A DNA stretch of 24,707 nt from a virus, in the IMG/VR virus record IMGVR_UViG_3300032208_000076, positions 1 through 24,707 of that record, one strand, 5' to 3'. Shown one piece after another: positions 11,063 through 24,707 of the stretch. The notes under the pieces are model-generated. The model did not search any database and was not told the DNA's origin. It worked only from the letters and a program-made list of their open reading frames with translations. The number at the start of each line of letters is the position of its first letter. The first letter of the stretch is position 1. The translations under genes and the position numbers were made by a program.

Positions 11063-14023
11063 TCAACTAATGACGATCTCTCCAAGCATACCAATATGAT
11101 ACTGACAAATGTAATAGTATGTTCCTGCTGTTACCCCTGTTGTATCCCAAGTTAAATCAAGTGTTTGTTGACCATTGTTTATCATAATACCTTGATCTGC
11201 TCTAGAACCAGGAACATCGTGAATTGCAATAACTTTTGAACAAGATGTGTTACCTGGGTCTGCAGAACAAGTTTGGTCAAACTGAATGGGACCAGGAGAA
11301 TTTGCAACTACACCAGCAATACCAGTGTCTATAGTATTGATCTTACTGACAAGCTTACCGCCCTGAGAATGACCGAACAGATAAACATCAGCGACCTCTT
11401 TAGTACCATTTAATGAAAGAATTGAATTAAAATCGTTCTTGATCCACTCAACTGCTGCTCTAGCATAAGGTAAGTTATCTCCCATAAGGAAGTCTGCCTG
11501 CTCTGTACCAACACCAGTTAAATTATATTGTTGTGATTGGGGGATATGATCCTGAGGATATGCAGCAGCAAAGACAATCTTATCTTTTAGGTTAAGGTTC
11601 GTAGTGTTTATGTCTGTAAATACATCAAGCATATATTCTGATGCCTGTGCAAGAGTAGTTCCACCACTTACAGTTCCATGGAAAACAACTATGGCATCAA
11701 TATTAGTTGTTAGTAAACCAGTGGGAACCCACAACGAACCCATGATTGGATACGATGTACCATCAATTGTGTAAGTATATCCCTGAGCAGGGGTGATAGT
11801 ATGAGTTGTACCAGAAACACTACCAGCAGGTATATTGTTTCCTCCAAAAAAGCTTCTAATTAATGCCTGAAGAGTAGCATCTGTTGTAAATGCATTGTGA
11901 CCACCATTGGCAACTGTCTCCAAATCTGCTGTGGCATTATTAGGATCTGATTGAACAGCTTGGACATAATCTTGCAGCCAAGTTACCTGATTACCACCAC
12001 CAGTATTATCATCTAATGCTTGAGTGAACATTATTGGTGCGTTGTGTGTACCAGTCCAACCCTCAAGACCAATGCCTTCCCACACTGGTGCATTACTACC
12101 AAGAACAGCGTTACCTGTGCCAGTGGTTCCTACTGTTTTAATCCAGAATGGATGAGATCCAGAAATAGAAAACTGAAATACTAATGTATCTCCAGCATTA
12201 CATCTAATTGTTGGATCTGCTGAATTATTAAACGTATTAAGAGAATCAGAACCAGTGAAGGTATAATCAGATGCTCCACTATTACCAACACTAAATGTAT
12301 ATGTATTTCCAGATGGTCCAGTAGAAGGAGCACCAGTTTCATAGTAAGTAGAAAATCTCGGGAAAGTCATTCCAGTAGTTCTATCCCCTCTAGTATCCTG
12401 CAAATATCCAACAGATTGTCTTGGATTTTCAATGTGCAAATATCTATTAGGACTTCCAAATCTACAAGTATTATCATCCAATCCACCACCAGATAGATCG
12501 AATGTCATATCATCTCTAATACAAAATTGATTCAGTAATCCACGGGCATCTTCTTGTGTAAATCTAACTTTGTTTGAAGCAAGACAAGCAATAACACCGC
12601 ATACTTGAGGAGATGCCATGCTAGTTCCATTGATCGGATAGAAGAAATTTCCAGCACTATACTTCTGGTCAGCAAGTCCAGTAGAATTAAACGTAGATAA
12701 GATATTATCACCAGGAGCAAAGATATCTACAGAGGGTCCAAATTGTGTGAAAGTAGATCTCCTAAAATCTGCTTGCTTACTTAAGGATCCGACATTAATA
12801 GCACCACTATCAGGTGTGTTTGGAGCACCTCCCCTATTGTAATAGAAGTTTCCAACACCATTCACTCCTAAAACATTATCATAATCTTGATCTCCTACTT
12901 CTGCCATCAATAAATTATCATTACCTGCTGCACCAATAACAACAATACCCTCCGCAATAGCATCTTGAATGTCAGCAGAAATAGCAGCAGAGTAACCAGG
13001 ATAATTTGGAAGACCAAATCTTACACCACAATCTGCCTCAAGTCCAGCCTCTGTCCATCCAGATGGGTTTGGATTGTTAGAATCATAAATTACACCACGG
13101 AATCTCACCAAAGTAACATCAGCAAAATCCAATCTATAGATAGGTTGCTCATTCTCATCTACACCTTTTTGTGGCATATTGATGATACTACCATAACTGT
13201 GGTTTGTAATAGTAGGATTCCTTCTTCCTGTTTCTGGATTAATTGGTTTAGTTTGATGGAATGCTCTTAAATAATCAAAAATTAACAACCCACCAAGAGA
13301 CTGTCCCGATGGCCATGTAGATGTCACCGCAATGTTATAGATATTTGCTTCTCTTGCCCACCCATAGTGTTGACCACAAGCAGTACCAGTTACATGATTA
13401 CCATGGTATTGTGGAATATTAGCACTCGTATCATATGTGATTGTTCCTGTTGGTAATGATTGTCCATCATCATCAATAGAAGAAACAAGACCATTCAGTT
13501 CATTAAACCACTGATACTGAACAAATCTAGTAAGTCCTGTTGATGGACTCAACCACTCTTCATTATCATACGATATACTATCGTCTACAATAACTACATC
13601 AACATTTCTACCATCATTGAATACATCAATACTTGTATTAAGTTGTTCAAATGTTGAACCAGAACCAAATTGATTCTTTCCTCTTTGGATAGCATCGCCA
13701 GCACAATGTACATGTCCCCATTGATAATCAAACGATGATACATTTGCTGGTGGTATAGTATCATCCTTCCAAAAATTTCCAGTGAGATTATATGGTTCGT
13801 TATTATTTTGTTGAGTTACAAAAATAATTTTGTCAACTTCTTCTACACCCCAAACTCTAGGGTCTTGACGCAATCTTTCTGCTTGCTCCTCAGTCATCAT
13901 GTAGTGAGTATTCCTACTAAGAGGACGCTTCTTGACTAATGGAAAGTTAGTCAACTTCATCTCATTATAAAACTTCTCCAGGTCTTCTTTCCTGTGAAGT
14001 GTTACGATATATTCCTTATCCAT
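11063..14023 (-). CDS. subtilisin-like protease fused to a cupredoxin split by an alpha/beta-hydrolase-like insert (986 aa)
   Basis: I choose the ATG at 14023 (MDKEYIVTLH) over the in-frame ATG at 14041 because GGAGG lies 6 nt before it. A charged region of about 70 residues (inhibitor_I9-like propeptide or anchor) comes first. A subtilase (S8) domain spans about 140-530: Asp147 in VIVDDSI, His207 in YHGNHVTGTACG, oxyanion Asn368 in GAAGND, Ser468 in NGTSMASP. At about 572-640 is the first half of a cupredoxin domain (YTFSVGNSGASDYTF, GDTLVF, ligand His624 in GSHPFWIKT). Its last strands return only at about 948-986, with ligands Cys973, His976 and Met979 in YYYICQYHIGMLGEI. The roughly 300 residues between them contain HG at 782-783 and the nucleophile elbow GHSQG (Ser886), as in alpha/beta hydrolases; I could not assign the acid and histidine with confidence. 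The start lies 1 nt after the TGA of the 388-aa fibre gene, with the ribosome site inside that gene, so the two are probably translationally coupled. A virion-borne protease/hydrolase acting on fibres or host surface is plausible but unproven. Confidence 0.87.
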   Translation of the reverse strand: MDKEYIVTLHRKEDLEKFYNEMKLTNFPLVKKRPLSRNTHYMMTEEQAERLRQDPRVWGVEEVDKIIFVTQQNNNEPYNLTGNFWKDDTIPPANVSSFDYQWGHVHCAGDAIQRGKNQFGSGSTFEQLNTSIDVFNDGRNVDVVIVDDSISYDNEEWLSPSTGLTRFVQYQWFNELNGLVSSIDDDGQSLPTGTITYDTSANIPQYHGNHVTGTACGQHYGWAREANIYNIAVTSTWPSGQSLGGLLIFDYLRAFHQTKPINPETGRRNPTITNHSYGSIINMPQKGVDENEQPIYRLDFADVTLVRFRGVIYDSNNPNPSGWTEAGLEADCGVRFGLPNYPGYSAAISADIQDAIAEGIVVIGAAGNDNLLMAEVGDQDYDNVLGVNGVGNFYYNRGGAPNTPDSGAINVGSLSKQADFRRSTFTQFGPSVDIFAPGDNILSTFNSTGLADQKYSAGNFFYPINGTSMASPQVCGVIACLASNKVRFTQEDARGLLNQFCIRDDMTFDLSGGGLDDNTCRFGSPNRYLHIENPRQSVGYLQDTRGDRTTGMTFPRFSTYYETGAPSTGPSGNTYTFSVGNSGASDYTFTGSDSLNTFNNSADPTIRCNAGDTLVFQFSISGSHPFWIKTVGTTGTGNAVLGSNAPVWEGIGLEGWTGTHNAPIMFTQALDDNTGGGNQVTWLQDYVQAVQSDPNNATADLETVANGGHNAFTTDATLQALIRSFFGGNNIPAGSVSGTTHTITPAQGYTYTIDGTSYPIMGSLWVPTGLLTTNIDAIVVFHGTVSGGTTLAQASEYMLDVFTDINTTNLNLKDKIVFAAAYPQDHIPQSQQYNLTGVGTEQADFLMGDNLPYARAAVEWIKNDFNSILSLNGTKEVADVYLFGHSQGGKLVSKINTIDTGIAGVVANSPGPIQFDQTCSADPGNTSCSKVIAIHDVPGSRADQGIMINNGQQTLDLTWDTTGVTAGTYYYICQYHIGMLGEIVIS

Positions 14024-14024
14024 A

Positions 14025-15191
14025 TCAAGCCTCCAGTGCAACGTAATGTAAGGTTACTCTGATTACTTCGTTGTTAGATGGATCTTTGTTTACAACTTTT
14101 AAGTATGCATTACTAGAAGGTGTACTGTCATCATTCCACCCTATTGTTCCTGGTGTAATTTTTTGTACAGTTGAACCCGTTGAAATTACTTCTGCAATTA
14201 CACCCGATCCTGGTAGAGGATCTGTTGTTTCATTTCTATTTGCATCAGCAGTTCTACTTGTTTGATCAGTATACAATGTCACCCATGCTGCTTTGTCTGT
14301 CTCAATCTTATGCAAAACATATGTCTTTGCTACAGTGATTGTAATGTAATCAGAAGAGTCTGGACTTAGAAGGTTAGTATCTTGGAAACTAGATGTTCTT
14401 GTCTGCAATCCACTAGAGTTACCCCACTGAACACCTGTAGCATTTCCACCGCCATCATTTCCAGTAGCAATCAATACTTGACCAGCAGTACCAGTAGAGT
14501 AATTGTTATCAGCGATAGCAACTGGATGACTACCACTACTTAGAATAAGTGCAGTGTTTGCTGAGTTACCTTCAATCTGAACTGAGTTACCAAAGTAAGC
14601 AAGGTTATTAGTAGAGATATTGAAGGGAGCGTTCTGCCACTTTGATGTAGTGCTGTTATAAAAGAGGTAATCGCCATCTGTCAATGGTGTTGCTGTCTGC
14701 CCAAGAGTATCAATGTCTGTATCAGTCAGGTCAGCAAGAGTGGATGTTGTACTGACACTTCCTGGTGCCCAGTTAGATCCATTCCAAACTAATGCATCAC
14801 CAGTGCCAGGAGCGGTAGTAACAACATCAGCTAACTCACTAAGATTAGATCCAGTATCTAATAACTGGGTCCACCCACCAGCATGTGCAAAGTATCCATG
14901 CCCAGTGTCATGAGCATGAGCAAACATACCATGATAAGTAGTTGCACTTACATTGTTTGTAAGATTTACAAGGGTATCCCAAACGTTACCGAAATATATT
15001 TTTCCAGTAGATGTAATATCCTGAGAAGTTGTTGCTCCTCTAGTCAATACATCATCTAACGTAGAAATTTCACTGTAAGCTGCTGAGGCAATCCAAGAAG
15101 TTCCATCCCATACGTATGTAATTCCACCTGCTGTATGTGTAAATGATCCATCAGTTGCCTCTCCAGCAGTATCAGGGAAATTGAATGCCAT
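14025..15191 (-). CDS. tail-fibre-like protein with shared C-terminal module and His-rich stretch (388 aa)
   Basis: A 388-residue fibre-like protein. The N-terminal 35 residues (MAFNFPDTAGEATDGSF..., then YVWDGTSW) resemble those of the 491-aa protein (MAIDFPTPTQTGETYTDG..., then WTWDGTTW) and probably form a common virion attachment motif. A histidine-rich segment lies at 86-107 (YHGMFAHAHDTGHGYFAH). Residues about 262-388 match the C-terminus of the 491-aa protein closely (IETDKAAWVTLYTDQTSRTA against IETSAAAWVKVYTNNTSRTA, and PGSGVIAEV in both). The late promoter at 15216-15223 lies about 25 nt upstream, and the ribosome site AAGGAAAG precedes the ATG. The gene ends 1 nt before the protease-cupredoxin gene and supplies its Shine-Dalgarno. 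Exact virion position unknown. Confidence 0.82.
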   Translation of the reverse strand: MAFNFPDTAGEATDGSFTHTAGGITYVWDGTSWIASAAYSEISTLDDVLTRGATTSQDITSTGKIYFGNVWDTLVNLTNNVSATTYHGMFAHAHDTGHGYFAHAGGWTQLLDTGSNLSELADVVTTAPGTGDALVWNGSNWAPGSVSTTSTLADLTDTDIDTLGQTATPLTDGDYLFYNSTTSKWQNAPFNISTNNLAYFGNSVQIEGNSANTALILSSGSHPVAIADNNYSTGTAGQVLIATGNDGGGNATGVQWGNSSGLQTRTSSFQDTNLLSPDSSDYITITVAKTYVLHKIETDKAAWVTLYTDQTSRTADANRNETTDPLPGSGVIAEVISTGSTVQKITPGTIGWNDDSTPSSNAYLKVVNKDPSNNEVIRVTLHYVALEA

Positions 15192-23690: not shown

Positions 23691-23927
23691 TCAGTTGTAT
23701 TTACGATAGGCACCAACCTCAGGGTCAGGGTCCAACCACTTGGTGTACTCTGGATCCTCAAGGCAAGTGTCTAGTTGCATTTGGTTGTCAAGCAGGTACA
23801 TGTCGAAGTACCGCTTTTTCCACTCGTGAAACTTTTGAATACGGTAGTCTGGCATACCGTTGGTTTCTAGGGTGCCGCACTGCACGAAGCGGTACGGTCC
23901 TTGATCAAGAATGACGGTGGGTTTCAT
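23691..23927 (-). CDS. small unknown cyanophage-type protein (78 aa)
   Basis: A 78-residue soluble protein, MKPTVILDQGPYRFVQCGTL..., ending PDPEVGAYRKYN. Its short beta-strand-rich start is followed by a charged, aromatic helical middle (KFHEWKKRYFDMYLLDNQMQ) and an acidic Pro-rich end. It looks like a compact domain of the sort seen as short conserved hypotheticals in T4-like cyanophages; I cannot name it. The ATG overlaps the TGA of the membrane-protein gene by 4 nt (ATGA), which implies translational coupling. The stop TGA is followed at once by the GAGGT ribosome site of the next gene. Confidence 0.75.
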   Translation of the reverse strand: MKPTVILDQGPYRFVQCGTLETNGMPDYRIQKFHEWKKRYFDMYLLDNQMQLDTCLEDPEYTKWLDPDPEVGAYRKYN

Positions 23928-24268
23928 AGGTCTGTTGCTGACTCGTTAATTGTAGCATGGTCTCTGTGCTTTGGCAACTGGCGTGAGCACCAGAATGCCA
24001 TGGCAATCAGAGCAAAGTAGAAGATAGTATCATCAATCATCACAAGGAAGAAGATAATACTACCACCATACTTTAACCAGTCAGGAAGTCTGTTTGTCAG
24101 TCTGCCAATGACTGGTCGAACTTTATTCTCAAATTTAAAGTAAAGAATTGCTCCTAGTGTTACTGTAATCTCACTCATCGGAACGATGAAGTAAAGAGAT
24201 AAGATAACGAAGATAGGCCAATAATGCCTCTCTGGTATCTTATTCAGTAACTCAAGAACCTTCTTCAT
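23924..24268 (-). CDS. small multi-pass membrane protein (114 aa)
   Basis: A 114-residue protein with an amphipathic start (MKKVLELLNKIPERHYWP) and hydrophobic segments at about 17-47 (IFVILSLYFIVPMSEI then TVTLGAILYF) and 68-93 (GGSIIFFLVMIDDTIFYFAL...). A positively charged loop separates them (KFENKVRPVIGRLTNRLP), and the tail is polar (PKHRDHATINESATDL). This suggests three to four membrane helices. The ATG lies 17 nt inside the end of the antitoxin-like gene, and the stop overlaps the next gene by 4 nt. I recognise no family. A toxin partner for the upstream antitoxin is conceivable from position only; nothing in the sequence itself resembles a known toxin. Confidence 0.72.
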   Translation of the reverse strand: MKKVLELLNKIPERHYWPIFVILSLYFIVPMSEITVTLGAILYFKFENKVRPVIGRLTNRLPDWLKYGGSIIFFLVMIDDTIFYFALIAMAFWCSRQLPKHRDHATINESATDL

Positions 24269-24458
24269 GATCAGAATACATTTCAGTCAACTCATCAACC
24301 TCAGCAACAGTAGTAGCTGCTTGTTCATACTCAGCAGCAGGGACAGCAACCACTGCCCTGCCATCTGGTTGGCGAATCAAGAATGATTCACCTGCTTCGA
24401 TGCGATCCATGTATCCATCAAAGTCTTTTTCAAACTCTGCTACGCTCAACTCAACCAT
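24252..24458 (-). CDS. Phd/YefM-like antitoxin-type protein (68 aa)
   Basis: I start at the ATG at 24458 (MVELSVAEFEKDFDGYMDRI). The longer ORF to 24500 would lie inside talC. AAAGAGA lies just upstream, and the ATG overlaps the talC stop region by 8 nt. The first 45 residues match the Phd/YefM fold: a short strand and helix (LSVAEFEKDFDGYMDRIEAG), then ESFLIRQPDGRAVVAVPAAE, the pattern in which antitoxins read 'GE...I...G.PVAVLVP..EY'. The tail is acidic (EVDELTEMYSDHEEGS), the region that in this family binds the toxin. No RelE, Doc or similar toxin gene is adjacent, so it looks orphan. Possible roles are blocking a host toxin or acting as a DNA-binding autoregulator. Confidence 0.72.
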   Translation of the reverse strand: MVELSVAEFEKDFDGYMDRIEAGESFLIRQPDGRAVVAVPAAEYEQAATTVAEVDELTEMYSDHEEGS

Positions 24459-24707
24459 TAATCTCTTTAAAATCCTTTTCAAAAATTGCAAGTCCTGCAT
24501 CAGTCAGGACATGATTGTACATCTTGTCGAATACACCAGTAGGTAGTGTAACTACATCTGCACCGTACAAGAGACAGCGAGAGACGTGGTGAACGTCACG
24601 AAGACTAGCGGCAAGAACCTTAGTCTCCACTCGCTTAGCAGCATACAGACCACCAATAGCACGTACCAGTTCGACACCACTAAAAGAGTTGTCGTTCATG
24701 CGACCTA
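24451..24707 (-). CDS. talC: transaldolase TalC, C-terminal part (5' end beyond window)
   Basis: An open frame enters from the right edge (...GRMNDNSFSGVELVRAIG) and ends at TGA 24453-24451, giving about 84 C-terminal residues. GRMNDN, VETKVLAASLRDVHHV and GADVVTLPTGVFDKMYNHVL match the short, fructose-6-phosphate-aldolase-like transaldolase carried by many cyanophages. Those proteins are usually a little over 200 residues, so roughly the last 40 percent is here; the Schiff-base lysine lies outside the window. In cyanophage infection TalC is thought to push host carbon through the pentose phosphate pathway to make NADPH and ribose for nucleotides. Its last bases encode the start of the antitoxin-like gene (8-nt overlap). 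Confidence 0.92.
   Translation of the reverse strand, partial: GRMNDNSFSGVELVRAIGGLYAAKRVETKVLAASLRDVHHVSRCLLYGADVVTLPTGVFDKMYNHVLTDAGLAIFEKDFKEING

Follow-up and report, generated by a model that had tools for sequence, protein, structure and literature searches.

A derived, toxin-less protein of predicted Phd/YefM fold in marine cyanomyoviruses and its possible role in trans

Operator recognition by the antitoxin YefM has been attributed to dual conserved N-terminal arginines, according to PMC3920265. In cyanophages, the idea that antitoxins counter host toxins is already in print for S-CREM1, in the passages of PMC9964418 considered here. In Synechococcus WH8102, a toxin-like host gene, PIN-PhoH (SYNW1946), is reported to limit phage Syn9, and its authors thought an interfering factor in Syn9 possible, by their account then without evidence (PMC5490813). 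The small cyanomyovirus protein described here belongs to a family that Syn9 also carries.

The gene and its family

The window, meaning the whole stretch of DNA analysed, is itself a virus record of 24,707 bases; among named viruses it is closest to cyanomyoviruses of Synechococcus, for example S-H9-1, ACG-2014h and Sf-CH1b. A preliminary description of this DNA had pointed to an antitoxin-type ORF of 68 aa that overlaps the end of talC and, at its other end, overlaps by 17 nt a following ORF of 114 aa taken to encode a membrane protein. Both junctions were confirmed, the first as an overlap of 8 nt and the second at 24252-24268, with the 114-aa ORF running from 24268 to 23924. The features are as follows.

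24252..24458, minus strand: gene for the 68-aa acidic protein of Phd/YefM fold (phrog_375), from the ORF, the profile match and the predicted fold
24451..24705, minus strand: 3' part of talC (transaldolase), the upstream neighbour, from PF00923 and phrog_440
24451..24458, minus strand: 8-nt overlap of the end of talC with the start of the Phd-fold gene, ATGGTTGA, from ORF coordinates
23924..24268, minus strand: 114-aa phrog_1248 protein (the membrane protein of the preliminary description), a variable neighbour
23691..23927, minus strand: 78-aa phrog_481 / T4-GC250 protein, widespread in cyanomyoviruses
24429..24431, minus strand: codon for Glu10, which aligns with Arg10 of E. coli YefM, from the HMMER alignment and a column count
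24255..24272, minus strand: codons of the C-terminal tail, DHEEGS, the conserved motif of the talC/GC250-linked clades

The order on the minus strand is the 3' part of talC, the genes for the 68-aa, 114-aa and 78-aa proteins, phrog_604, two 2OG-Fe(II) oxygenases and the tail-fibre genes. The talC frame has its stop at 24451 and its 5' end outside the window; matches to PF00923 (E 3.5e-10; 40.1 bits, cut-off 27) and to phrog_440 (E 1.1e-33) support its identity. The Phd-fold ORF runs from 24458 to 24252 with an ATG start and a TGA stop. An alternative in-frame upstream ATG would give an 82-aa version; the annotated relatives start where the 68-aa version does, not the 82-aa one. The 8-nt overlap suggests translational coupling of talC and the Phd-fold gene. 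The tail-gene region of the window also holds a 992-aa ORF (11063-14041), and one of the genes in the aligned region of the relative S-H9-1 bears the annotation 'subtilisin-like serine protease'.

The 68-aa protein matches phrog_375, 'Phd-like antitoxin', with an E of 9.1e-21 over profile positions 4-72 of 74. It stays below the cut-offs of Pfam PF02604 PhdYeFM_antitox (27.8 bits against a curated 29.8) and NCBIfam phd_fam (13.1 against 20.8); with PF02604 the S-SSM4 copy scores 14.5 bits and the Syn33 copy gives no match at E<=1. A phmmer search of the window protein against the PDB returned nothing at E<=1. An AlphaFold2 model built with 73 relatives from virus contigs predicts a beta-alpha-alpha-beta-beta-alpha fold, with pLDDT of about 89-93 for residues 1-40 and of 54-72 thereafter. 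The 23 structures ranked highest in the comparison are all Phd/YefM-type antitoxins with Z from 7.0 to 4.9, all Z values being below 8, and the one listed after them has Z 3.5; the best Foldseek E, 3.5e-3, is above 0.001. The nearest solved structures are those of P1 Phd and YefM-type antitoxins (for 4zlx_A, Z 6.9 and an rmsd of 1.5 over 47 residues), and the core of the predicted model matches them as expected for the Phd/YefM fold superfamily. The fold proposed in the preliminary description is therefore borne out by the model, the structure comparison and Foldseek.

The name is not new, as the protein is an ordinary member of phrog_375, an already annotated family, and many records already label the gene 'Phd-like antitoxin' or 'PhDYefM tox-ant domain'. 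The gene is real and under selection, since the pooled pN/pS of its core is 0.235 (41 distinct 67-aa copies, unsaturated pairs, those with pS over 0.6 being excluded). Its two clades are treated as one family on the strength of phrog_375 and of the S-SZBM1 copy, to which the profile of the first clade has a weak match (E 6e-05).

Occurrence and changing neighbours

Exactly one phrog_375 match was found in 24 of 25 whole cyanomyovirus records and none in P-SSM2; 20 of the 25 had been picked by their Phd match, which applies equally to the phrog_662 and phrog_1248 counts below. Among the five records not so picked, Syn33, S-RIM2, ACG-2014d and S-SSM4 have the family and P-SSM2 does not. Syn9, which was retrieved for a different purpose, also has an annotated member (gp22). 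By tblastn, the window query matched 85 records at E<=10, weak matches included, and the Syn33 query 278 records at E<=1e-3. Phages of Prochlorococcus that match the family are P-HM1, P-HM2 and MED4-213 (host MED4), P-SSM7 (NATL1A), and P-RSM3, P-RSM6 and P-TIM40 (all NATL2A). One locus of the set (L349:1815-2563) is alone in having two tandem Phd-fold ORFs, both bearing the tail described below. Another lies on a contig binned with a Euryarchaeota MAG (TMED129; L114), on which psbA is 95% identical to that of cyanophage S-CAM1; this is probably cyanophage contamination of the TMED129 bin.

The gene is found at two addresses. At address A it lies between tRNA genes and tail-fibre genes and is followed, with zero to few genes between, by GC250; the gene upstream varies and may be talC, talC with glutaredoxin, peroxiredoxin (S-SSM7) or a tRNA gene (Bellamy, S-SM2). 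Redox genes, such as glutaredoxin or the S-SSM7 peroxiredoxin, are often just upstream at this address, and in Sf-FS3 a thioredoxin-domain gene lies two features upstream. At address B the gene follows gp5 (baseplate hub, tail lysozyme) and DUF7294. Neighbours were counted at 292 viral loci, the matches listed from five queries with at most 80 from each, so that the counts mirror the queries; for overlaps, the start codon nearest to the profile start was used. Among these listed loci talC is upstream in 115, DUF7294 in 64 and glutaredoxin in 45, and GC250 is downstream in 179. An 8-nt overlap with talC occurs in 53 of the 72 listed loci that have talC but no glutaredoxin upstream, glutaredoxin overlaps the gene in 33 of its 45, and DUF7294 does so by exactly 4 nt in all 64 of its listed loci (for example L210). 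What recurs is a close junction with the gene upstream, whichever gene that may be.

The link to talC drawn in the preliminary description thus holds for close relatives, at 53/53 well-flanked loci found with a close-relative query (A3), but not as a special coupling. The Phd gene is single-copy in 24/25 records at different addresses; in Syn33, S-RIM2 and ACG-2014d it lies near 17 kb, with talC elsewhere. A talC-coupled auxiliary metabolic operon would call for a constant association, and talC is upstream in only the 115 of 292 listed loci. Coupling to talC as the functional key was accordingly rejected, since several other genes can take the upstream place. As to infection timing, PMC5082946 places the auxiliary metabolic genes of P-HM2, talC among them, in the middle cluster; the Phd gene goes unmentioned in that text, and in P-HM2 it is not beside talC. 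Chemostat evolution of S-PM2d yielded mutations in the overlap of nrdC1 and the Phd gene (L006:3489-3504) in 2/3 replicates, according to PMC9910659; these are only suggestive, because the overlap bases belong to both genes.

That no recognisable toxin lies beside the gene, as first described, agrees with PADLOC (0/4 proteins), Pfam (7 proteins) and NCBIfam (4 proteins), none of which found a toxin or defence family among the neighbours. An adjacent cognate toxin, as expected for a type II antitoxin, is thus missing among the neighbours tested, and an unrecognised one is possible. The 114-aa membrane protein, earlier put forward as a possible partner, was rejected as a variable neighbour: it is within 600 nt downstream in only 33 of the 292 listed viral loci. 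Its family, phrog_1248, matches 12/25 whole records at E<=0.01, ten clearly and two weakly (E 0.0025 with internal stops; E 0.009), and in the ten clear records it adjoins the Phd gene in four and is apart in six. DUF7294 (phrog_662, PF23966) was tempting as a hidden toxin, given its 64/64 4-nt overlaps in the listed loci. It was rejected because it is missing from 13 of the 24 Phd-gene records and apart from the gene in four; in all, phrog_662 matches 12/25 records, of which seven have it beside the Phd gene and one, P-SSM2, has no Phd gene.

GC250 was also considered as a hidden toxin. Its family (phrog_481) was found in 461 phage records at E<=0.01 and has 17 invariant columns in 39 sequences. 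The GC250 model (pLDDT 84.6) has no clear relative or fold match, with a best Z of 4.7 and no Foldseek E<=0.001; RelE, Doc and other toxin folds are not among the structure matches listed, which does not exclude them. Near the Phd gene GC250 was seen in 0/40 of the well-flanked Syn33-type loci listed, and it lies elsewhere in such genomes. A recent host origin of the Phd-fold gene was rejected too, since a scan of genome_contigs for a close relative gave 481 pattern matches, none confirmed, and plasmid relatives were discarded after 12 weak matches with a best E of about 1.

Differences from host YefM and the C-terminal tail

For comparison with bacteria, 18 of the 20 best-scoring loci were kept from 201 genomes of the family of Synechococcus sp. 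UW140, and set against 214 distinct phage copies. The best relatives in these genomes match the core only, and they are YefM-like, as nine of the ten best are followed directly by a YoeB match. The operator arginines of YefM we take to be Arg10 and Arg31. None of the 214 phage copies has a basic residue at the Arg10 column, which holds Glu in 138 and Gln in 76 of them, whereas 11 of the host relatives have Arg there, 6 have Lys and one has a gap. Arg occupies the Arg31 column in 18/18 host and 51/214 phage copies. An independent HMMER alignment, free of gaps, also sets Glu10 opposite YefM Arg10. The N-terminal operator arginines expected of a type II antitoxin are therefore not a property of the phage family. 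In the C-terminal region, with which antitoxins of this type bind the toxin, the segment HLLRSPxN that follows the core in 12/18 host YefMs was found in 0/214 phage copies, many of which have a different conserved tail.

The phage proteins are also more acidic. Over the full length their median net charge is -10 (n=214), and over the first 45 residues it is -6; the host set (n=18) has medians of -4 and -1. The window protein as a whole has a net charge of -14. Per residue, the family median of -0.175 is reached by 3/89 other small phage CDS and the value of the window protein, -0.206, by 2/89, the baseline being the CDS of 12 of the isolate loci. Judged from its sequence, the Phd-fold protein is probably not an autorepressor, because the N-terminal operator-linked arginine is missing. 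The loss of that arginine does not prove a loss of DNA binding.

The ending H[DEN][DEN][GA][SCAP] is present in 123 of the 214 distinct complete copies, and is unevenly distributed: 68/83 copies linked to talC/glutaredoxin, 51/73 linked to GC249/GC250, 3/15 others and 1/43 linked to DUF7294. A looser tail pattern matched 18 of 1782 ORF segments, all 18 of them Phd ORFs, so the tail was rejected as a common C-terminal tag on other phage proteins. It was equally rejected as a mark of the whole family, given 1/43 in the DUF7294-linked clade. As the DUF7294-linked copies end otherwise, the tail H-x-x-[GA]-[SCAP] is a branch feature, with most copies in the talC- and GC250-linked clades. In the 67-aa set pN/pS is 0.77 for the linker and 0.323 for the last nine residues, next to the 0.235 of the core. 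The corresponding core, linker and tail values are 0.192, 0.731 and 0.289 in the 56-aa set and 0.242, 0.419 and 0.229 in the 58-aa set. The tail is thus constrained and the linker before it far less so, a contrast that is sharpest in the 67-aa set. For the changed arginine column or the tail, no description was found in the open-licence literature searched, which is no proof of novelty.

A possible role in trans and its alternatives

Given the above, we tentatively favor the reading, quite possible though far from secure, that the family is a stand-alone Phd-fold protein which was freed from operator binding and acts in trans on a host protein. Under this scenario, a small, very acidic protein would be translated together with whichever gene lies upstream, here talC. 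Having lost the N-terminal operator-linked arginine, it would not repress its own transcription, and it would bind and block a host protein by itself, presumably as a dimer. The short C-terminal tail H-x-x-[GA]-[SC] would be the likely contact in the clade of the window; the motif cannot explain the function of the whole family, as it ends only 1/43 DUF7294-linked and 3/15 other copies. The most likely class of target would be a host growth-control or RNA-cleaving enzyme of toxin type. Two further observations speak against this reading: the family is matched by phages of Prochlorococcus, whose strains are reported to lack toxin-antitoxin genes, and the post-core segment common among host YefMs is missing. 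The arginine loss fits a protein that left its operon, because DNA binding would be unneeded where there is no toxin gene to be controlled, and a lone binder of a host protein is favored since the scaffold and the putative binding tail were kept and the operator arginine was lost. If the protein does neutralize a host protein, it would be a widespread single-gene factor for host takeover or counter-defence in marine cyanomyoviruses, and its target would lead straight to host systems that escape detection by homology.

A narrower form of this idea, taken from the Dmd-like role that the preliminary description thought possible, is a canonical YefM/Phd-type antitoxin that neutralizes host toxins of the YoeB, RelE, ParE or Doc type. 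The predicted fold is consistent with it, as are the matches over cut-off to YoeB (50), ParE (58) and Fic (78) among the 201 genomes and the role proposed for the S-CREM1 antitoxins in PMC9964418. PIN-PhoH is a further point in its favor, as that gene limits Syn9 (PMC5490813) and Syn9 carries the family; Syn9 gp22 is a concrete candidate for the factor that interferes with PIN-PhoH. However, we consider the canonical form unlikely, as the phage copies have neither HLLRSPxN nor an Arg10-type residue, both features of host YefM, the genome_contigs scan confirmed no close relative, and Prochlorococcus hosts are reported to be without such toxins, although a few small genomes among the 201 do match ParE or Fic. 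Were it nevertheless correct, the result would be a modest extension of the proposal already in print. The operator-arginine loss gives a clean prediction that separates the anti-toxin reading from one in which the protein kept the Phd fold and regulates genes of the phage or the host by binding DNA. Phd is a fold that binds DNA, and operator-bound P1 Phd (4zm2, 4zm0) is among the closest structure matches, but with no basic residue at the Arg10 column in any of the 214 copies and with the excess of negative charge over the host relatives, in the first 45 residues as in the whole protein, such a regulator seems improbable.

Just as improbable, in our judgment, is a small protein associated with the virion or its assembly. 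Both addresses border tail genes, address B following the gp5 baseplate hub and DUF7294 and address A lying between the tRNA and tail-fibre genes, but address A also holds talC, glutaredoxin and oxygenase genes, and no structural family among the Pfam and PHROG profiles matches the Phd-fold protein. We regard as very improbable that the protein is half of a phage-encoded pair whose other member is DUF7294, GC250 or the 114-aa membrane protein. The invariable 4-nt overlap with DUF7294 where that gene is upstream and the frequency of GC250 downstream, both among the listed loci, would suit a pair. Against it, each candidate partner is dispensable: 13/25 records have the Phd gene without DUF7294 and four have both apart, the membrane gene is apart in 6/10 clear cases, and GC250, with no clear fold match for its model, is absent near the gene from the 40 well-flanked Syn33-type loci listed.

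The favored reading, a lone binder acting in trans, has a bolder form that concerns Prochlorococcus. Toxin-antitoxin genes are stated to occur in none of 38 strains in the relevant part of a review (PMC12413379), similar statements of absence are made in parts of PMC5498466 and PMC2518516, and the latter suggests RNA-based candidates for MED4. This absence may be incomplete, since a few small genomes among the 201 of the host set do match ParE or Fic. It is conceivable, if rather doubtful, that a near-universal cyanomyovirus protein of antitoxin fold, having dropped operator binding, is a general factor of host takeover whose target in Prochlorococcus is an unrecognized growth-control or defence enzyme. 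The target would reveal such an enzyme because the gene is kept in phages of Prochlorococcus, which is without recognized toxin-antitoxin systems. If true, it would do so in the ocean's most abundant photosynthetic cells.

Among known systems, T4 Dmd and TifA are, like the Phd-fold protein, phage proteins without a toxin of their own, and their purpose is possibly the same; for them neutralization has been demonstrated, according to PMC10853763, while for the Phd-fold protein it is putative. The S-CREM1 YefM, TacA and MazE are likewise orphan antitoxin genes in a cyanomyovirus, with the same proposal of countering host toxins (as presented in PMC9964418). P1 Phd of Phd-Doc shares the core fold (4zlx_A) and the phage origin, but the protein described here has no adjacent Doc gene and is no part of a plasmid-addiction pair. 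With YefM of YefM-YoeB, from host picocyanobacteria or E. coli (2a6q), it shares the core fold and a recognizable core sequence; it differs in lacking an adjacent toxin gene and HLLRSPxN, in having Glu or Gln at the Arg10 column, and in being shorter and more acidic. Its own family is phrog_375 / T4-GC859 'PhDYefM tox-ant domain' of S-RSM4, S-PM2, S-CAM4, Syn33 and Syn9. Nothing essential sets the window gene apart from that family: the Sf-CH1b copy is 88% identical, and close relatives have their Phd-like gene in the same place after talC. The family as a whole is a derived, toxin-less variant of the Phd/YefM kind.
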